Assembly: GCA_905478555.1 (NCBI GenBank)
Contig: CAJQIZ010000024.1
Coordinates: 1 to 64,000, forward strand
Direction of reading: 5' to 3'
Origin: an uncultured Flavobacteriales bacterium
GTDB lineage: Bacteria > Bacteroidota > Bacteroidia > Flavobacteriales > BACL11
DNA: 64,000 nucleotides
Of this stretch, positions 31,483-61,977 are shown piece by piece. The notes beneath the pieces are model-generated. The model did not search any database, was not told where the DNA came from, and saw nothing but the letters and a program-made list of their open reading frames with translations. Positions within the stretch are counted from its first letter, which is position 1, and every line of letters begins with the position of its first letter. The translations under genes and the position numbers were made by a program.

Positions 31483-31483
31483 A

Positions 31484-31506
31484 GGTTCGAATCCTGCTAC
31501 CCCGAC
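31484..31506 (+). repeat. tRNA 3'-end-like 23-mer, left copy (candidate attL)
   Basis: The sequence reads GGTTCGAAT followed by CCTGCTACCCCGAC, exactly the T-loop, T-stem 3' strand, acceptor 3' strand and discriminator of a tRNA whose 5' end would be CGGGGTA (best fit tRNA-Pro). The 5' part of a tRNA is absent: the preceding bases are the end of the M28 peptidase gene. Confidence 0.75.
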
Positions 31507-31515
31507 ACTTTTCTC

Positions 31516-31538
31516 CCCGAAAATCACTGATTTTCGGG
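31516..31538. terminator. GC-capped palindrome, possible terminator
   Basis: CCCGAAAATCA is repeated as its exact complement around a single central C, giving a hairpin with a stem of at least 9 bp. It starts 10 nt after the 23-mer. It may end transcription from the M28 peptidase gene or be part of the recombination site. No long T-run follows. Confidence 0.4.
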
Positions 31539-31579
31539 AGTAACACACTGATTACCAAGCCCAAGAACATAAGATTTAG

Positions 31580-31601
31580 AAATTATTTTATAAAATAATT
31601 T
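31580..31601. repeat. Perfect 22-bp AT palindrome
   Basis: AAATTATTTTA and its complement meet without a spacer, and a T-run follows on the plus strand. In this AT-rich context it may be a weak terminator or a protein site for the integrase. Confidence 0.45.
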
Positions 31602-31821
31602 TTTACCCCCTTTTATCAGATAATGCCACCAAAAAAAATGTAAAACGGTGCAAATTCTGGTGAAAGAAAATTGGAGTAAAAATTTTCTTCTTTTTTCATC
31701 ATTAAAAAAATCATCTTTTTGCATCTGTAAACGTATATCTTTAAAGATAATTTATATTTATTTTTAAAGATAACTTATTGATAATCAATTTATTAAATGG
31801 TAACTATATTGTATAATTTAA

Positions 31822-31829
31822 TAAATTTG
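31822..31829 (+). promoter_or_regulatory. TAAATTTG -7 element for the integrase, leaderless spacing
   Basis: TAAATTTG is separated from the integrase ATG at 31834 by only 4 nt (TAAG). A TTG lies 10 nt upstream. Confidence 0.5.
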
Positions 31830-31833
31830 TAAG

Positions 31834-33078
31834 ATGAAAAAACAGTTATTAGTAAGCTTCTTGGCAAGAAAATCAATGATGAAGAAAAATGGCATGGCGC
31901 CAATTTATTGTCGTGTGAGATATGACGACACCACAACTAAGTTTAGTACTAAAATAGATGTGCCGTATATAAATTGGGATTCCAAAAGAACACGCGTAAT
32001 AGGTAATAGTAAAAAAGCAATGAATTTGCAATTAGAAACGATTCGTATAGAAATAATAGAGAAATACGAAGAGCTTACTAAAGCGAATGTAGTAGTTACT
32101 TCCAAAAAAATAGTAGATTACTATAAAAATGAAATGGTTATTATGAATTCTATAGTAAATGTAGTTATAGAACATAATAAAAACATGAAATCTCTAATTG
32201 GCAAAGAATACTCTTATGGCTCTTTTAAAAATTATAAAACGACTCTTAAGCATTTACGTAGTTATATTAAAGAAACTTATAGTAAAAAAGACGTATTACT
32301 AAGTAAAGTAGATTATCATTTTATCTCTCATTTTTCTCTCTATATTTTGAAAGAGACAGAATGTAATAATAATGGTATGATGAAGCATATGCAAAGGCTT
32401 AAGAAAATTATTAATTTCTCTCTTAAGAATAACTACATAACAAATGATCCATTTACTGGATTTAAAATAAGCTTTAAAAGAACAAATAGAGTTTACTTAA
32501 CAAAAGAAGAATTACTTACTATTTCGCAAGTAACATTAAATGAAAGCTTAAGTAAAGTAAGAGACGTTTTTTTGTTCTCTTGCTACACGGGTCTTTCGTA
32601 CGTAGATTTATACAATTTGAAAAAAGAAAACATAAAGAGCGGTAATGATGGATTAGAGTGGATTTACATAAAGCGTAGTAAAACAAACATTCCTTCTAAT
32701 TTACCTCTCTTGCCACCTGCTTTCTCTCTTTTGAAAAAATATAGAGAAATAGAGAAGAAAAATAGAGAGAACAAAGAGAACGCAAGAGAAAAAATAGAAA
32801 GAAATAGAGAAAATAGAGTGTTTCCAATGATTAGTAATCAAAAGACAAATAAAGCTCTTAAAGAAATTTCTCTTTTATGTAATTTTAATAAGAAGATTAC
32901 TTTTCATAGTGCTCGCCATACTTTTGCTACGACCGTTACTTTAACAAACGGAGTGCCTATAGAAACAGTCTCTAAAATGCTTGGACATAATAATATAAGA
33001 ACTACTCAAATTTATGCTCGAGTAATTGATTCAAAAATTAGTTCTGATATGCTTATTTTAAGAAATAAAATATTTTAA
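31834..33078 (+). CDS. Tyrosine recombinase/integrase, IntDOT-like
   Basis: The order is an N-terminal arm-binding domain (about residues 1-80), a SAM-like core-binding domain (about 105-205) and a catalytic domain. Catalytic residues visible are Lys283 in RSKTN, His358 and Arg361 in HSARH, His385 in LGHNN and Tyr394 in QIYAR. The first catalytic Arg is replaced by Ser255 in TGLSYVDLY, as in the integrase of the Bacteroides element CTnDOT. A charged insertion rich in Arg, Glu and Asn (about residues 305-328) is unusual. The gene is next to the left 23-mer, as expected for the enzyme that inserted the island. Confidence 0.93.
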   Translation: MKKQLLVSFLARKSMMKKNGMAPIYCRVRYDDTTTKFSTKIDVPYINWDSKRTRVIGNSKKAMNLQLETIRIEIIEKYEELTKANVVVTSKKIVDYYKNEMVIMNSIVNVVIEHNKNMKSLIGKEYSYGSFKNYKTTLKHLRSYIKETYSKKDVLLSKVDYHFISHFSLYILKETECNNNGMMKHMQRLKKIINFSLKNNYITNDPFTGFKISFKRTNRVYLTKEELLTISQVTLNESLSKVRDVFLFSCYTGLSYVDLYNLKKENIKSGNDGLEWIYIKRSKTNIPSNLPLLPPAFSLLKKYREIEKKNRENKENAREKIERNRENRVFPMISNQKTNKALKEISLLCNFNKKITFHSARHTFATTVTLTNGVPIETVSKMLGHNNIRTTQIYARVIDSKISSDMLILRNKIF

Positions 33079-33135
33079 TTATTAACAAGACTATAGAATA
33101 AATGAAACATTATTGAGAAACAAATAATTAAATTA

Positions 33136-33143
33136 TAAATTTG
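33136..33143 (+). promoter_or_regulatory. TAAATTTG -7 element for the methyltransferase, leaderless spacing
   Basis: TAAATTTG is followed by 5 nt (CTAGT) and ATG 33149, so the methyltransferase mRNA is predicted to be leaderless. Confidence 0.5.
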
Positions 33144-33148
33144 CTAGT

Positions 33149-34384
33149 ATGTCTAAAAAAATAAAAGTAATTGAATTATTTGCTGGCGTTGGAGGATTTC
33201 GTCTTGGATTAGAGAAGAGTAATTATAAAATTGTTTGGAGTAACCAATGGGAACCGTCAACCAAGAAGCAACATGCCTCAATGGTTTATGAAGCACGTTT
33301 TGGAAAAGCAAATCACTCAAACGAAAATATCAATGAGGTTGTATCTAGAAATGTAGAGGAAATTCCAGATCATGATTTATTAGTTGGTGGATTTCCTTGT
33401 CAGGATTATTCTGTTGCAACTACATTACATAATTCAAAAGGGTTAAAAGGTAAAAAAGGAGTTCTTTGGTGGTCAATTCATAAAATTCTAGAAAACAAGA
33501 AGAATAAACCAAAATATTTGTTTTTAGAAAATGTTGATAGGCTTCTAAAATCACCAGTTAGTCAAAGAGGGCGTGATTTTGCAGTAATGCTACAAAGTTT
33601 AAATAATTTGGGATATGCAGTAGAATGGAGAGTAATAAATGCAGCAGAATACGGAATGCCACAGAGAAGAAGAAGAATTTTCTTTCTTGCTTATCATAAA
33701 TCTACAGAAGTTTATAAAACACTTCAAAAGTCTAATAAAATCGATTGGATTATAAAAGAAGGAACGATTGCTAGTGCTTTTCCAGTCATTCAATCAAATG
33801 TAATGCAAGAATTTCAGTTAAGAGGTAATTTGGTAGAAATAACCAACGAATTCAATAAAACTGGCAAAATATCACCTTTCCTAAATACCGGATTATTGAT
33901 TAAAGGAAAAGTTTATACAACAAAAACGAAGCCTAAATATAATGGCCAAAAAACTGTATTAGGTGATATATTACAAAATGGAGAAGTGAGCTCTGAATTC
34001 TTTATTGATGAAAATGACAAGCCTAAATGGGAATACTTAAAGGGTGCTAAAAAAGAAAAAAGAAAAACTAAGAATGGATTTGAATACAATTATACTGAAG
34101 GCGGAATGATTTACCCTGATGCATTAGATAATGCCTCAAGAACTATAATTACTGGAGAAGGAGGAAAATCTCCTTCAAGATTTAAACATGTAGTTGATTC
34201 TGATAGAGGTTTAAGAAGATTAACACCTGTCGAATTAGAAAGACTGAATATGTTTCCTATTAACCACACTAAACTTGATAATATTACTGATGCAAAAAGA
34301 GCATTCTTTATGGGGAATGCACTTGTTGTTGGAGTGGTAGAGAAAATAGGAGATGTTCTTTTTAGAAAGATAAGATCTCTCTAG
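33149..34384 (+). CDS. DNA (cytosine-5) methyltransferase
   Basis: The C5 methyltransferase motifs are in order: motif I FAGVGGFRLG (SAM binding, residues 11-20), motif IV GGFPCQDYS with catalytic Cys84, motif VI LENVDR (Glu127), motif VIII QRRRRIF (about residues 172-178) and motif X FFMGNALVVGVV near the C-terminus. The target-recognition region lies at about residues 230-345. The target sequence cannot be read from the protein. It is 411 aa. The gene converges on a BglII-like endonuclease gene with a 23-nt overlap, so the pair is probably a type II restriction-modification system. Confidence 0.95.
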   Translation: MSKKIKVIELFAGVGGFRLGLEKSNYKIVWSNQWEPSTKKQHASMVYEARFGKANHSNENINEVVSRNVEEIPDHDLLVGGFPCQDYSVATTLHNSKGLKGKKGVLWWSIHKILENKKNKPKYLFLENVDRLLKSPVSQRGRDFAVMLQSLNNLGYAVEWRVINAAEYGMPQRRRRIFFLAYHKSTEVYKTLQKSNKIDWIIKEGTIASAFPVIQSNVMQEFQLRGNLVEITNEFNKTGKISPFLNTGLLIKGKVYTTKTKPKYNGQKTVLGDILQNGEVSSEFFIDENDKPKWEYLKGAKKEKRKTKNGFEYNYTEGGMIYPDALDNASRTIITGEGGKSPSRFKHVVDSDRGLRRLTPVELERLNMFPINHTKLDNITDAKRAFFMGNALVVGVVEKIGDVLFRKIRSL

Positions 34385-34973
34385 TTTCTTTTTCTATTAT
34401 GAAACTTTCAGGTGAGGTAAGTCCAATTAGAACTATTGGTGTTGATATAAGATTATGATATGGTTTAAAGTATTCCTTAAATTTTTCAAAAGTACCAATT
34501 GCTCCATCAAAATTTCCTGATTTCTTTAGTTCTTCAGTAGCAACAATTATTATTCCTAATTCTGTTTTGATTTCTTTTTCTACATGATTTAATTCACTTG
34601 CTAAAACAGGCTTCATGATATTATGAGCAGTTGCTTCTTGGTGATTAAATGCAACTTCAATTGAAATGAAGTTTTTTGCAAAATCTAACCTCCATCTACT
34701 TCTGTTGGATTTATTATAAGGAGGCTCTTTAAATAATCCACTTTCAGAATTCCAACCTAAATTTTCTAACCTTTCCTTAAGTAAACTATTAATTGGTTCA
34801 GACAAACTCTTAATATTTTTTCTTGTTGTTTTTCTAGAGTTAAATTCTTTAATCAGATCTGAATCAGAGATAGAATCAATAACCTTAATTATTTGACTAT
34901 AATCTTTTTTAAACTTATTGTCATGTTCAACTAATACGTTTGAGTTCCTATGATTATAGATTGAGTAGTTCAT
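34362..34973 (-). CDS. Probable type II restriction endonuclease, BglII/BstYI-like
   Basis: The 203-aa protein has WRLDFAKNFISIEVAF at residues 94-109. The Asp97-to-Glu106 spacing of nine matches the catalytic Asp84 and Glu93 of BglII. The Gln two residues after Glu in BglII is Ala here. The following segment, NHQEATAHNIMKPVLASEL, also resembles that family. The position, converging on the cytosine methyltransferase, supports a restriction enzyme. It follows the DUF262 gene by 30 nt on the same strand. The assignment is from motif and context and was not checked by search. Confidence 0.65.
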   Translation of the reverse strand: MNYSIYNHRNSNVLVEHDNKFKKDYSQIIKVIDSISDSDLIKEFNSRKTTRKNIKSLSEPINSLLKERLENLGWNSESGLFKEPPYNKSNRSRWRLDFAKNFISIEVAFNHQEATAHNIMKPVLASELNHVEKEIKTELGIIIVATEELKKSGNFDGAIGTFEKFKEYFKPYHNLISTPIVLIGLTSPESFIIEKETREILSF

Positions 34974-35003
34974 ATTTTTTTAATAGAGAAATAATTTAGA
35001 TGC

Positions 35004-36860
35004 TTAATATTTAAAGTCAGTGATATAAGCCTTCTTTATGTAATCTGCTAATATTTTTGTTCTTTTGTCAATCTCTGAAGGGCTGGATATAAAGTCTGAA
35101 GTAGTTAGATTTTCTTCATTTAACTTTTCAAAATTATAATCTCCATCTGTCTTTTCATTTGTTTCAATAAATTCTTTAGTAATTAGAGTTTTGGATTCCG
35201 CATTATTGAGTAGTTTTAATTTCTCTACGTGAGATTTATTTTGCATTTCACCATTTAATGATGCATCTATAATTAAGATATTGCCTAATTTATTTTCGTG
35301 TGCTCTACTAATATCTTTCGAGATGTCCCAATTGTCTTGTGCTTCCTGTGGCATGTAATGTTCTATAGAATGATTTTGTTGATTATGGAATGATCCATTT
35401 AAAACAAGTTCCTCAATATCACCAAAAATAGTATGAATAAGATGTTTGTTATTATTGTCATGTTTTATTTTATTGATTCCCTCATAATATTCTTCATTTA
35501 GGACTTTATAAACATCGATAGTTTTCTTTACATATCCATCAAAATGATTCTTGAAGGCTTTTTTTACATCTTTGTTGGACTTTTCATGGTCTTGAGGAAA
35601 ATCAATTAATGATTTATTTATTGCTTTTGACAACTTATACATTGCAGGCGTAAAATCTCTTGTAGGAAATGAAAAGATATTAAAATGTAAAAATGAGAAA
35701 ACAAAATGTTTCCTAAATATCTTTACAAGATAATTATCTTTATTTATAATTGAAACTTGTCTTTCATTTAATTTTGTTTCATAATCTAAAAGTGTAAAGA
35801 TTGGAATAATCCAAGATTTATTTCTTATAAATCTAAAACAATTCAAATATCTCATATAAACAGCTGAGTGCCTTGGATTTGAATTTGCAGACGGGTAATG
35901 AACTTTAAATGAATTATAGTCTTTACAGTTAAATATGTTTTCAAATGTTTTAGATGATAATTCTAAATCATGAAAGAATTCTAACCATTTATCAGAATCA
36001 CTCTTGAATTCTTTTTTCATAGAAGTAAATAGATGTTTTTTTCCAACAGGTTTGAATTTTGCAATCCAATAATAATGCATAAACTCAATAAATGAGAATC
36101 CTGTTAATGATAATCTATTATTTATTTTATTCCATCTATCATCTAAATCTTCAAGATCTTTATCATTAAGTCTGGCATGTTTAATTAATATATTCTTTAC
36201 CAATTCTGAGGCATTTAATTGTTCTCCTCTATGATTAACTGACTCAAAAATTTCAATACCTAAGACTATGTCAGAAATAGTCATCTCTACAACTTCTAGT
36301 TCAGATAACCTTTGTTTATAAAGTTTGTAAAATTCATCAGTATTATTATTGGTGTTTAGATAATCTTCTACTTGCGTATAAAAGTATAAATATGCTTTAT
36401 AAATCTCCTTTTCTATTTTAGTATTTCCATTTTCTGGTTCTTTATGAATATCACTGTTTTGAAAATTGAGAGTAAAATAATTTGCAATAGTTTTACTTAC
36501 AATTAATTTAGGTTTATCGTCAAATCCAATAATAAATTGTCTTAAGATTGCTCCTGCATTTATAACATCATCATTTTCCACTAATACATCTATAATCGCT
36601 TTTGATAAAATAGTTAATGTTGTAATCCTTTGCTGTCCGTCAAAAATCTGTTTTGGTTCTCCAATTATTTCTGGCTCTAGGAAGATAAAACTTCCAAGAA
36701 ATGTGTCTTGGTCTTCTATTGAGAAAAATGAGTTCCACATTGTTTCCCAGTTTCCCTTTGACCATGTATATGACCTTTGGTTATATGGTATCTTATTTGG
36801 TATATTAGTGGAAATTATCTCATAAAGTGATTTTGTTGTACTTATAACTTTTTTTGACAT
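35004..36860 (-). CDS. DUF262/DUF1524 (GmrSD-like) defence protein
   Basis: The N-terminal DUF262 domain contains the ParB-like DGQQRITT motif (residues 74-81). The C-terminal DUF1524 part has the HNH-like IEHYMPQ, then KLGNILIID with a downstream Asn and Lys (about residues 490-545). This is the single-chain form of GmrSD-type IV restriction enzymes, which cut modified DNA and use nucleotides. At 618 aa it has the usual length. It is the first gene of a minus-strand pair with the endonuclease, and its 5' side borders the 125-bp repeat at the right end of the island. Confidence 0.85.
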   Translation of the reverse strand: MSKKVISTTKSLYEIISTNIPNKIPYNQRSYTWSKGNWETMWNSFFSIEDQDTFLGSFIFLEPEIIGEPKQIFDGQQRITTLTILSKAIIDVLVENDDVINAGAILRQFIIGFDDKPKLIVSKTIANYFTLNFQNSDIHKEPENGNTKIEKEIYKAYLYFYTQVEDYLNTNNNTDEFYKLYKQRLSELEVVEMTISDIVLGIEIFESVNHRGEQLNASELVKNILIKHARLNDKDLEDLDDRWNKINNRLSLTGFSFIEFMHYYWIAKFKPVGKKHLFTSMKKEFKSDSDKWLEFFHDLELSSKTFENIFNCKDYNSFKVHYPSANSNPRHSAVYMRYLNCFRFIRNKSWIIPIFTLLDYETKLNERQVSIINKDNYLVKIFRKHFVFSFLHFNIFSFPTRDFTPAMYKLSKAINKSLIDFPQDHEKSNKDVKKAFKNHFDGYVKKTIDVYKVLNEEYYEGINKIKHDNNNKHLIHTIFGDIEELVLNGSFHNQQNHSIEHYMPQEAQDNWDISKDISRAHENKLGNILIIDASLNGEMQNKSHVEKLKLLNNAESKTLITKEFIETNEKTDGDYNFEKLNEENLTTSDFISSPSEIDKRTKILADYIKKAYITDFKY

Positions 36861-36930
36861 TATTTTATTCTTTTAATTTAATGCTAATTTATATATTTAT
36901 TTTTTAAAATAACGAATTACTCTTAAATTT

Positions 36931-37055
36931 CAATTATTTTTTTAATTTTGGCTTACTAGATTGATTAGCGGTGCAAAAAGCGGAGCAATTTTTAGTTTGA
37001 ATGCTTGCTGTAATCATGTAAAAAGGTGTTAGGTTGTAATCCTGCTACCCCGACT
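36931..37055 (+). repeat. 125-bp dispersed repeat, copy 1
   Basis: This segment is 94% identical (118 of 125 by hand alignment, no gaps) to the reverse complement of 60466-60590. It contains GCGGTGCAAAAAGCGGAGC, an AGCAA/TTGCT inverted pair, TGTAATCATGTAAA, and ends with the tRNA-like 23-mer. It marks the right end of the island and is followed by a decayed T9SS tail. Confidence 0.9.
37032..37054 (+). repeat. tRNA 3'-end-like 23-mer, right copy (candidate attR)
   Basis: GGTTGTAAT followed by CCTGCTACCCCGAC is in direct orientation to the copy at 31484. It differs at two positions inside the T-loop, so it no longer forms a canonical TTCGAAT loop. Confidence 0.75.
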
Positions 37056-37071
37056 AAAAAATTCATGTTGT

Positions 37072-37272
37072 GTGACCTGGATATGGGATGCGAATTCAGG
37101 AGTTTGGGCTAAGATGGGTAGTATGACCTCTATAGGAGAGATAGGATCATTTGACAAAAAGATAATGAAAGTAGTTGATATCTTAGTTAGAGAATCTAAA
37201 GATTTAAAAAATCAAACTCTCTTTTATATCTATGACGATGGAACAGTAAAGAAAAGAATAGTTATAGAATAA
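37072..37272 (+). pseudogene. Remnant of a secreted protein with a T9SS C-terminal tail
   Basis: The last 38 codons (MKVVDILVRESKD to FYIYDDGTVKKRIVIE) closely match the C-terminal tails of the two cargo genes at 59507 and 60624 (IYDDGTVEKRIVVE and similar). Upstream there is only a GTG-initiated, incoherent reading frame of about 28 codons and no signal peptide. It starts 17 nt after the right 23-mer, the same position relative to the repeat as the intact cargo genes. It is therefore probably the 3' end of a deleted cargo gene. Confidence 0.7.
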
Positions 37273-37293
37273 AATTATTTTAAAAAAGTTGTT

Positions 37294-59420: not shown

Positions 59421-59506
59421 GTGTCTGACTTAATGGCTAGATCCTCTTGATTTTCCTCTGGCATCTCATGTGGAATTTCTGATTAGAAAAAACTTTTAAA
59501 AATAAT

Positions 59507-60421
59507 TTATTCAATAATTATTCTCTTTTCTACCGTTCCATCATCATAAAGATAAAATAGTGGAGAATTTGGTTTTTCATTAACTGTCCTGCCTAATAAA
59601 TCAATAATCTTATAAGGTCTTTCATTGTATAATTGATTATCTAATCCAGAAAATATTTTTTCTATACTAAACTTATTAAACCCATATACACCGTAAGATA
59701 TTCCATTTCCCATACCTCTCCAAGAATACCAATGTATATTATTATCCCAAGTATCATAACAACCAAACTCTTGAGTAGAATTATCATATCCTATACCTAC
59801 TACAAAGTGATCTGTCAAATCATCCCCATCAGTATCGACTAATATAATTACTGGTTTATTATTATCAATTTCCATCTTATATTCATCCCAGCTAATACTA
59901 GAATAATACTCATATTCTGTATTTGTAATATAATTTGGATTTCTAAAATATATATAATCCTCAAAGGCAGTTCCAATGTCACTAGACCAACTCCATCCCC
60001 AATAATTACCACAGACACTCATTGATGTTTTCATAAAATCTGCAATTGAATTATTCTGATGAGGAATACCTGTTTCAGAAATGTCTTGTAATAAATTTGG
60101 GTAATAATCCTGTGGTAATGAATAATCATCATAATGTTCATTACTAGCAATTAACATATTGATATTATTTGTTTGAAGCAACGTGCTATCATCATACAGA
60201 TCATAAAACCCATGCAAATCGTAGAAACCAACAATCATGCCTAATGCTGTAGGGCCACAGCCTCTATGCCATATATATGTAGGCATCTCATCTATTAAAA
60301 CAACGTTACTTTTATTTAGATTCCCAATAGGCACATTTAATGGTCTCATATTATAGCCTCTACTTTGTTGTGCAAAAACTAGAGTAGGTATAAAAAATGA
60401 TATTAGCAATAGTTTTTTCAT
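59507..60421 (-). CDS. Secreted papain-like C39-type peptidase with T9SS type A tail
   Basis: A signal peptide (to about LVFAQ) is followed by a C39-like cysteine peptidase domain. The catalytic Cys55 is in HRGCGPTALG, His205 in DHFVVGIGYD, and Asp223 or Asp226 in YDTWD. The last 35 residues (KIIDLLGRTVNEKP to LYDDGTVEKRIIIE) are a short T9SS type A sorting tail. The enzyme would act outside the cell or on the surface. A TAAGTTTG promoter lies 4 nt before ATG, and a 125-bp repeat with the tRNA-like 23-mer lies 45 nt upstream. The substrate is unknown. Confidence 0.8.
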   Translation of the reverse strand: MKKLLLISFFIPTLVFAQQSRGYNMRPLNVPIGNLNKSNVVLIDEMPTYIWHRGCGPTALGMIVGFYDLHGFYDLYDDSTLLQTNNINMLIASNEHYDDYSLPQDYYPNLLQDISETGIPHQNNSIADFMKTSMSVCGNYWGWSWSSDIGTAFEDYIYFRNPNYITNTEYEYYSSISWDEYKMEIDNNKPVIILVDTDGDDLTDHFVVGIGYDNSTQEFGCYDTWDNNIHWYSWRGMGNGISYGVYGFNKFSIEKIFSGLDNQLYNERPYKIIDLLGRTVNEKPNSPLFYLYDDGTVEKRIIIE

Positions 60422-60433: not shown

Positions 60434-60465
60434 CAAAAAATAATGAAAAATATTGAAGTGAAAAA

Positions 60466-60590
60466 AGTCGGGGTAGCAGGATTACAACCTAACACCTATT
60501 TACATGATTACAGCAAGTTTTCAAACTAAAAATTGCTCCGCTTTTTGCACCGCTAATCAATCTACTAAAACAAACTTAAAAAAATAATTG
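60466..60590 (-). repeat. 125-bp dispersed repeat, copy 2
   Basis: This is the inverted counterpart of 36931-37055, with seven substitutions and no gaps by hand alignment. It sits between the two cargo genes and ends (on the minus strand) with the 23-mer, which leads into the promoter of the C39-type gene. Confidence 0.9.
60467..60489 (-). repeat. tRNA 3'-end-like 23-mer, third copy
   Basis: On the minus strand it reads GGTTGTAAT plus CCTGCTACCCCGAC, identical to the copy at 37032. A T-run (TTTTTT) follows. Confidence 0.75.
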
Positions 60591-60623
60591 GAATATCTGA
60601 TTAGAAAATGCTTTTTAAAATAA

Positions 60624-61907
60624 TTATTCTACAACTATTCTTTTTTCTACTGTTCCATCATCATAGATTTCAATAAATGGAGTGTGAGTTTGAGGTTTAG
60701 TTTCTTTTCCTAGTATATCAACTGTCTTTTGTAGGTTTCTGTTTGGATTTATAGGAATATTGAATGTTGAGGTTATGTTTCCATTTCCATCTGTTTTTAT
60801 TAGATAGATATCACTAAATCCCCATCCTCCAGTAGTTCCTGTAATGATATAGCCTCCATCAGTGGTTTGTTGAACAGAATGACCTACGTCATCATCTGTT
60901 CCTCCAAATGTTTTACTCCATTGTTCTGTTCCATTACCATCTGTTTTTATTAGATAGACATCAAGACCTCCACTTCCTAAAGATTCTGTACTTCCTGTAA
61001 TGATACAACCTCCATCAGTGGTTTGTTGAACAGAACTACCTATATCATCTCCTACTCCTCCAAATATTTGACTCCATTGTTCTATACCATTTCCATCTGT
61101 TTTTATTAGATAGAGATCATGGTTAAATGCTAAATTATAATCTGATCCTGTAATGATATATCCTCCATCAGCGGTTTGTTGAACAGAATAACTGAAAGAG
61201 GAATGAGTACTACTAAAGTTTTCAGTCCATTGCTCTATTCCATTACCATCTGTTTTTATTAGACAGGTATAAAAGGAAGATCCAGACTTTGTACGTCCTG
61301 TAATAATATATCCTCCATCATTAGTTTGTTGAACGGAAGAACCCCAATCATCTCCTGTACCTCCAAATGTTTTACTCCATTGTTCTGTTCCATTACCATC
61401 TGTTTTTATTAGATAGACATCAAGACCTCCACTTCCTAAAGACTCTGTACTTCCTGTAATAATATATCCTCCATCAGAGGTTTGTTGAACTGATGTACCA
61501 TAATCATAACTTGTTCCTCCAAAAGTTTGACTCCATAACTCTACTCCATTAACATCTGTTTTGATGAGATAGACATCATCCCCATTCGCAAATGAAGTTG
61601 TATATCCCGTTATGATATAACCTCCATCAGTGGTTTGTTGAACTGATTTACCTTCATCAGCATCTGTTCCTCCAAAAGTTTGACTCCACTGATCTACTCC
61701 ATAAGCATCTGTTTTTAGGAGATAAACATCACTAGATCCATTTCCATTTCCATAAGAATGGGTTAATCCTGTAATGATATAACCTCCATCTGTGGTTTGT
61801 TGGACAGATTGACCAACATCTGCTGATGCTCCTCCAAAAGTTGTTTCCCATCCTTGCCCAAATCCAATCAAAGGCACACATAGTAAAATCAATAGTAATT
61901 TTTTCAT
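60624..61907 (-). CDS. Secreted seven-bladed beta-propeller protein with T9SS type A tail
   Basis: A signal peptide (to about LIGFGQ) is followed by seven repeats of about 50 residues, each with a W-x-x-TFGG start, SVQQTTDGGYIITG and DVYLIKTDGNG. Seven repeats suggest a closed propeller. The tail (VDILGKETKPQTHTPF to IYDDGTVEKRIVVE) is a T9SS type A sorting signal. The function is probably binding at the surface, with no catalytic motif. The mRNA is predicted leaderless. A 23-mer copy lies 45 nt upstream, and the 125-bp repeat follows its 3' end. Confidence 0.88.
   Translation of the reverse strand: MKKLLLILLCVPLIGFGQGWETTFGGASADVGQSVQQTTDGGYIITGLTHSYGNGNGSSDVYLLKTDAYGVDQWSQTFGGTDADEGKSVQQTTDGGYIITGYTTSFANGDDVYLIKTDVNGVELWSQTFGGTSYDYGTSVQQTSDGGYIITGSTESLGSGGLDVYLIKTDGNGTEQWSKTFGGTGDDWGSSVQQTNDGGYIITGRTKSGSSFYTCLIKTDGNGIEQWTENFSSTHSSFSYSVQQTADGGYIITGSDYNLAFNHDLYLIKTDGNGIEQWSQIFGGVGDDIGSSVQQTTDGGCIITGSTESLGSGGLDVYLIKTDGNGTEQWSKTFGGTDDDVGHSVQQTTDGGYIITGTTGGWGFSDIYLIKTDGNGNITSTFNIPINPNRNLQKTVDILGKETKPQTHTPFIEIYDDGTVEKRIVVE
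60780..61890 (-). repeat. Seven tandem coding repeats of about 150 bp
   Basis: The propeller blades are visible in DNA. One 105-bp stretch (60901-61005) differs from another (61360-61464) at only two positions, indicating recent duplication or gene conversion between non-adjacent blades. Confidence 0.85.
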
Positions 61908-61952: not shown

Positions 61953-61975
61953 GTCGGGGTAGCAGGATTATAACC
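61953..61975 (-). repeat. tRNA 3'-end-like 23-mer, fourth copy
   Basis: On the minus strand it reads GGTTATAAT plus CCTGCTACCCCGAC. It begins 2 nt after the sdhB stop, without the rest of the 125-bp repeat, in the same way that the left island copy abuts the M28 peptidase stop. Confidence 0.75.
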
Positions 61976-61977
61976 TT

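Follow-up and report, generated by a model that had tools for sequence, protein, structure and literature searches.

Repeated tRNA-Pro 3' ends as boundaries of small gene cassettes in a family of Flavobacteriales: a probable capture system served by a Bacteroidota-type tyrosine integrase

Why does the 3' end of a tRNA gene recur in a stretch of DNA in which a search for tRNA genes finds none? This question is raised by 64,000 nt of an uncultured Flavobacteriales bacterium (contig CAJQIZ010000024.1; the whole stretch is called the window here), in which the 14-mer CCTGCTACCCCGAC occurs exactly at four places, 31493-31506(+), 37041-37054(+), 60467-60480(-) and 61953-61966(-), where 0.04 matches with up to two mismatches are expected by chance. 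The 14-mer represents the end of the T-arm and the acceptor 3' strand of tRNA-Pro(TGG), in agreement with the tRNA-Pro origin that a first-pass annotation had thought probable, and the intact source gene is present in the window's own 1.79-Mb genome (G000) at G000:C40:3746-3823(-). This annotation had described four copies of a 23-nt sequence; their positions stand, but the exact match is limited to the last 14 nt because the T-loops differ (TTCGAAT at 31484, TTGTAAT both in the copy that ends at 37054 and in the one that starts at 60467, TTATAAT in the copy starting at 61953). Across G000, 11 exact copies of the 14-mer were found versus none of a reversed control pattern, five of the 11 on contig C30. 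Comparison with 52 genomes of the same family (G numbers; most are draft assemblies, and element copy numbers per genome are lower bounds) leads us to propose, with good though not complete confidence, that these copies belong to a tRNA-Pro-anchored cassette-capture system served by a Bacteroidota-type tyrosine integrase.

The copies at 37041 and 60467 extend well beyond the previously noted 23-mer: about 110 further bases are conserved upstream of the cores at 37041 and, on the opposite strand, 60480, and CCTGCTACCCCGAC is the tip of an element of about 140 bp. A 96-nt query gave at least 25 matches to this element in G000, ten or more of them in the same direction on contig C30, while a 124-nt query detected it in 37 of the 52 family genomes and a profile recovered 92 full elements in 50 loci. 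Neighbouring elements less than 5 kb apart are arranged head-to-tail in 51 of 51 pairs, with a median spacing of 1,266 bp, and the same-orientation rule also holds in the least fragmented assemblies (G048 with two contigs, G049 with four).

What lies between the elements is equally regular. The 65 inter-element stretches, whose median length is 1,355 bp, nearly all lack an integrase; 62 of them contain an open reading frame (ORF) of 60 aa or more, just one such ORF being present in 37 of these 62, and in 42 of the 62 the first gene begins at most 110 nt from the left end and points the same way as the element. A cassette is laid out as tRNA-Pro 3' end, promoter-like leader, gene(s) and element, with a typical left end of the form TACCCCGACTTTTTTCTCTTC...TGTAAGTTTGC-ATG. 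A putative promoter, the Bacteroidota-type motif TAnnTTTG, is found near a fixed position of the leader in 25 of the 65 stretches (7.9 expected). The cargo is diverse, with 103 Pfam families over 96 ORFs; tails for type IX secretion (T9SS) are its commonest feature (n=6) and defence families are only occasional. The window had been annotated as containing a defence island, and restriction and defence-type genes are indeed present in its integrase-bearing unit, which is, however, one member of a family-wide set of cassettes that are mostly single-gene and mostly unrelated to defence.

The connection with tRNA-Pro is most apparent in the relatives. Integrases 64-72% identical to that of the window occur in seven other genomes, and in six of these (G015, G022, G029, G032, G045 and G049) the gene lies directly behind an intact tRNA-Pro. 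Cassettes directly follow tRNA-Pro in G006 and G014, with no integrase there; in G048, this position is held by a different integrase of a second group (36-42% identical), and G000, G021 and G034 have no recognisable unit behind tRNA-Pro. Second-group integrases (38% identical) were also seen next to tRNA-Val (L120 and L121; G047:C7 and G004:C6), so that other tRNAs may host systems of the same design.

Integrases of the NBU1/CTnDOT type combine arm-binding, SAM-like core and catalytic domains, and NBU1 also uses a tRNA gene. The window integrase has the complete domain set of this type (Arm-DNA-bind_5, Phage_int_SAM_5, Phage_integrase), and its catalytic HxxR, H and Y are intact. A CYTGLSY motif that is invariant in all eight integrases places Ser at the position of Arg I, a replacement known from IntDOT as well; comparison with solved structures matched only general tyrosine recombinases. 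In contrast to NBU1 and CTnDOT, the unit carries no conjugation or mobilization genes, and its integrase would serve a population of cassettes.

A second link is provided by short repeats. In integrase units, paired GGTGCAA repeats with 12-nt spacing lie about 163 nt inside the left end, and 47 of 67 elements contain a GGWGCAA pair, with the same 12-nt interval in all those listed; the integrase unit is marked by the pair at each end, most cassettes at the right end. Within the window, such pairs (one mismatch allowed) are located at 31647, 36970 and 60533, in addition to one coding site. They are putative arm-type binding sites, and it is because they are common to the integrase unit and the elements that we link the integrase to the cassettes. 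The left ends carry a variable T-loop, the elements mostly TTGTAAT, and at the right end of the C30 array other DNA begins straight after CCTGC, which suggests that the crossover probably takes place within AATCCTGC; this placement is not firm, since IntDOT-type integrases tolerate mismatches in the crossover region.

According to the mechanism that we envisage, an integrase of the type encoded at 31834-33078 would recombine double-stranded sites in which the T-arm is joined to the acceptor 3' end of tRNA-Pro(TGG), with the tRNA-Pro gene as primary site in the role of attI. A cassette, presumably excised as a circle, would recombine at tRNA-Pro, and its leading CCTGCTACCCCGAC would restore the tRNA 3' end, so that tRNA-Pro would stay whole and the newest unit would always adjoin it. 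Each cassette would bring a leader with a promoter-like motif, as a rule one or two genes, and the 3' element of about 140 bp, in which two arm-binding repeats for the integrase (GGWGCAA twice) precede the core. Cassettes without an integrase would be moved in trans by integrase-bearing units such as 31483-37054, and core-like sequences would serve cassettes as secondary sites, several of which immediately follow the stop codons of housekeeping genes. The first-pass suggestion of an integrase that uses tRNA-derived sites, with secondary insertions, had the origin of the sites right, but was incomplete in that the conserved element at one end had gone unrecognised.

Several points weigh against this mechanism. 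Several element-rich genomes (G011-G014 and G042) do not have this integrase in their draft assemblies, and the second integrase group could, from its place at tRNA-Pro in G048, account for part of the observations. Roughly a quarter of the cassette ORFs are oriented opposite to the element. Moreover, no excised circle, junction read or activity has been observed. The sequence directly shows the element, the layout of the arrays, the link to tRNA-Pro, the arm repeats in common, empty sites and cassettes exchanged between genera; excision as circles, the role of this integrase as the enzyme, a crossover within AATCCTGC and promoter activity are inferred.

The strongest competing explanation is ordinary tandem accretion of islands at tRNA-Pro, in which decayed integrase islands leave cis-mobilizable remnants bounded by attL and attR and no dedicated cassette form exists. 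Integrase and integrase-less units do share one core at one tRNA, and degenerate integrase units were found, namely one with an in-frame TGA in G049 (C1) and left-end remnants in G013 and G003. There is also precedent in Dehalococcoides, where tandem islands at ssrA were interpreted as integrative mobilizable elements and cis-mobilizable elements, some of them without integration genes (PMC3146451); these islands likewise have direct repeats of the 3' end of a tRNA-like gene between units and are inserted in the T-loop region (PMC3146451). As in tRNA-targeting elements, the integrase stands beside intact tRNA-Pro (six relatives) and the core is repeated at downstream elements, and, as in cis-mobilizable elements, units without integrase are bounded by the same core (65 cassettes). 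However, the units are uniformly small (median 1.36 kb), the distance between the left end and the gene start is fixed, and this left end lacks the left arm of the integrase unit and carries the promoter-like motif instead. We regard tandem accretion as unlikely because random decay would not yield such a regular layout. The Dehalococcoides islands furthermore employ serine recombinases and multi-gene integration modules (PMC3146451), whereas a single tyrosine integrase and units of mostly one or two genes are found here.

For the cassette-capture system, movement between sites is indicated by empty sites in relatives, which were found behind both housekeeping genes that precede a core in the window. 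A CN-hydrolase gene lies within about 75 bp of sdhB in G039, G042 and G049, and in most relatives the sequence next to the M28 peptidase gene is not the core. A core behind the M28 stop codon was seen in five genomes of two genera (G000, G012, G013, G038 and G047), and this secondary site has either been used repeatedly or reflects one old insertion. Exchange between genera is supported by a cassette with a 167-aa antisense ORF that is common to G000 (genus g1; G000:C30:8486-9234, L012) and G044 (genus g15; G044:C5, L116): its body is 97.9% identical over 624 aligned bases, as compared to 87.4% for sdhB DNA, and the match extends as far as CCTGC, beyond which G000 continues with other DNA and G044 with the next cassette. 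A second shared cassette, comprising five genes, is 93.4% identical between G049 and G048 from the exact left end. The end element of the G000/G044 cassette is only 87.7% identical, as opposed to 97.9% for the body, and each copy has the version of its own genus (g1 mostly AGCAATTTT/ATCATG, g15 mostly GCAAATT/ATCTAGTG); the end elements seem to have been converted to the host's type.

These observations also bear on a tRNA-derived interspersed repeat, similar to short interspersed nuclear elements or miniature inverted-repeat transposable elements, that spreads by self-copying and forms arrays via homologous recombination between copies. Such a repeat would fit the many dispersed copies, the lineage-specific element versions and an inversion between opposed copies in the window (see below), but it is very improbable in view of neighbours that are co-oriented in 51 of 51 pairs, copies that flank genes as units, arm repeats common to element and integrase unit, insertions that rebuild tRNA-Pro, and shared cassettes with exact ends. 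A true integron (IntI with attC cassettes) that lies near tRNA sites by chance can practically be dismissed: head-to-tail single-gene cassettes and an integrase at one end in relatives would be expected of it, but the integrase scores 51.7 bits against TIGR02249 (cut-off 265) with its best stretch only at residues 332-400, the attC R''/R' pair (RYYYAAC...GTTRRRY) occurs in none of the 67 elements, and 30 elements fold no better than shuffled sequences on both strands (mean z -0.27 and +0.09). The motif GTTRRRY, present in 16 of the 67 elements, was also considered as an integron core and rejected, being not conserved and having no partner.

As for the distribution of the element, every exact copy detected in a collection of named genomes stems from a metagenome-assembled genome labelled Flavobacteriales or Crocinitomicaceae. 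Families f7 and f9 contain weaker relatives, of which some have a different core sequence and are present several times per contig; divergent elements at L266, L268 and L269 (family f7) and at L109:7938 have cores such as GGGTTCATTTACTGCTACC replacing GGTTGTAATCCTGCTACC. No copy of the element was found in GenBank phages or PLSDB plasmids, neither the core nor relatives of the integrase in IMG/VR viral contigs, and no known RNA family in L012 or the window. G049 and G048 have in common another type of sequence to the left of the core (GATGTGTAAAATAGCGAGGGACCTATTAGGGTACC...; L104:4300-4417, L111:1798-1910 and L108:8880-9009), which may be the element that belongs to the second integrase group.

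In the window itself, positions 31483-37054 are one cassette-type unit carrying its own integrase. Its left core site AGGTTCGAATCCTGCTACCCCGAC (31483-31506, +), which combines the tRNA-Pro T-arm with the acceptor 3' strand, directly follows the stop codon of the M28 peptidase gene, and the core behind sdhB is placed in the same way, in line with the first-pass annotation, which had also correctly noted that one copy adjoins the integrase. Just inside the left end lie a short inverted repeat (31514-31541, +), conserved in the integrase units of relatives by sequence comparison, and the left arm-type repeat pair GGTGCAAattctGGTGaAA (31647-31665, +; one mismatch, 12-nt spacing, perfect in most relatives), followed by the intact tyrosine integrase gene (31834-33078, +; 414 aa). 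Downstream, genes for a C5-cytosine DNA methyltransferase (33149-34384, +) and a BglII-like restriction endonuclease (34362-34973, -; PF09195, E 9e-10) converge (33149-34973) with a 23-bp overlap and probably form a restriction-modification pair; a methylase with 86% identity to this one is encoded in the G029 integrase unit. A gene for a GmrSD-type (DUF262/GmrSD_C) protein that is HEC-06/Orf5-like (35004-36860, -) and the cassette-end element (36919-37054, +; arm repeats 36970-36988, core 37031-37054) complete the unit.

On the other side, the left core site AGGTTATAATCCTGCTACCCCGAC (61953-61976, -) directly after the sdhB stop codon opens a cassette with gene A (60624-61907, -), which encodes a secreted repeat protein with a T9SS-type tail and has a related gene in a G006 cassette; this cassette closes with an element at 60454-60602 (-; core 60467-60490, arm repeats 60533-60551). 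Gene B (59507-60421, -) encodes a secreted C39-peptidase-like protein, also with a T9SS-type tail, and behind it stand the first bases of a truncated element (59470-59490, -). A remnant of the tail of a secreted-protein gene, ending in YIYDDGTVKKRIVIE before the stop (37055-37275, +), is probably the truncated next cassette. The segment 37055-60466 (23.4 kb) is inverted in the G000 assembly relative to other genomes, the genes between M28 and sdhB being in the opposite order in six (G013, G042, G044, G045, G048 and G049), and at each of its ends lies one of two opposed copies of the element. Once the inversion is undone, the M28 side reads M28, core, integrase unit and gene B cassette, and the sdhB side reads sdhB, core, gene A cassette, truncated cassette and CN hydrolase. 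Site-specific and homologous recombination would each explain the inversion, and a misassembly is also possible because the repeats measure about 115-140 bp and the assembly is a draft. The matching sites that had been noted elsewhere are cassette boundaries, and the copies at 37041 and 60467 are in addition the two ends of the inversion.

How does this system compare to known ones? Integrons and their integrase-less CALIN (clusters of attC sites lacking integron-integrases) arrays share with it small cassettes in head-to-tail order, a conserved terminal recombination site, one entry site and arrays with and without integrase (PMC11389934). They differ in that the integrase here is not IntI, the site is of a double-stranded type with arm repeats and without an attC hairpin, a tRNA gene is the entry site, the cassettes have promoter-like leaders, and the integrase resides inside a unit with the same ends as the cassettes. 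The proposed system would function in the manner of an integron, but it is not one. In Acinetobacter, pdif/dif modules are likewise small recombinase-less gene modules that are shuffled in trans by tyrosine recombinases, but these are XerCD acting at dif-type plasmid sites (PMC6449649), as opposed to a dedicated integrase and a chromosomal tRNA site.

Among small aquatic genomes, 'Ca. Methylopumilus' has an additive flexible island with repeated tRNA-Lys ends at variable islands of 330 bp to 42 kb, and no bona fide integrons were found among its small insertions (PMC10872708). The available portion of that account mentions neither a cassette structure nor arm repeats, and neither a link to an integrase nor an element conserved beyond the 20 bp (PMC10872708). 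Tycheposons, according to secondary accounts, are similar in being tRNA-associated, in their tyrosine recombinase and cargo, and in their occurrence in small-genome marine bacteria (PMC10872708, PMC11389934); they appear there as cargo carriers of 4-200 kb (PMC10872708), a range that includes the 5.6-kb integrase unit alone, whereas the cassettes stand in rows, have a median size of 1.36 kb and mostly lack a recombinase.

Serial units with repeats of a tRNA or tmRNA 3' end between them are already known; new are the regular cassette anatomy, the conserved element with its arm repeats, the family-wide extent and the exchange between genera, and a literature search, which covered few subscription papers, returned no description of such a system. 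Whether it amounts to an independent Flavobacteriales analogue of the integron, with a tRNA platform, a double-strand integrase in place of IntI, promoter-bearing one-gene cassettes circulating between genera and lineage-stamped end elements, is in our judgement evenly balanced. Integrons are the textbook route for stockpiling single-gene cassettes, and, if true, a second, unrelated solution would separate the essential logic (one entry site, one conserved cassette end, a recombinase in trans) from what is dispensable (IntI, single-strand attC). Programs based on IntI and attC would miss these cassettes, for which the element offers a simple sequence signature suited to cassette mining in marine metagenomes, and the system may account for a large part of the variable genes in these small-genome marine bacteria.
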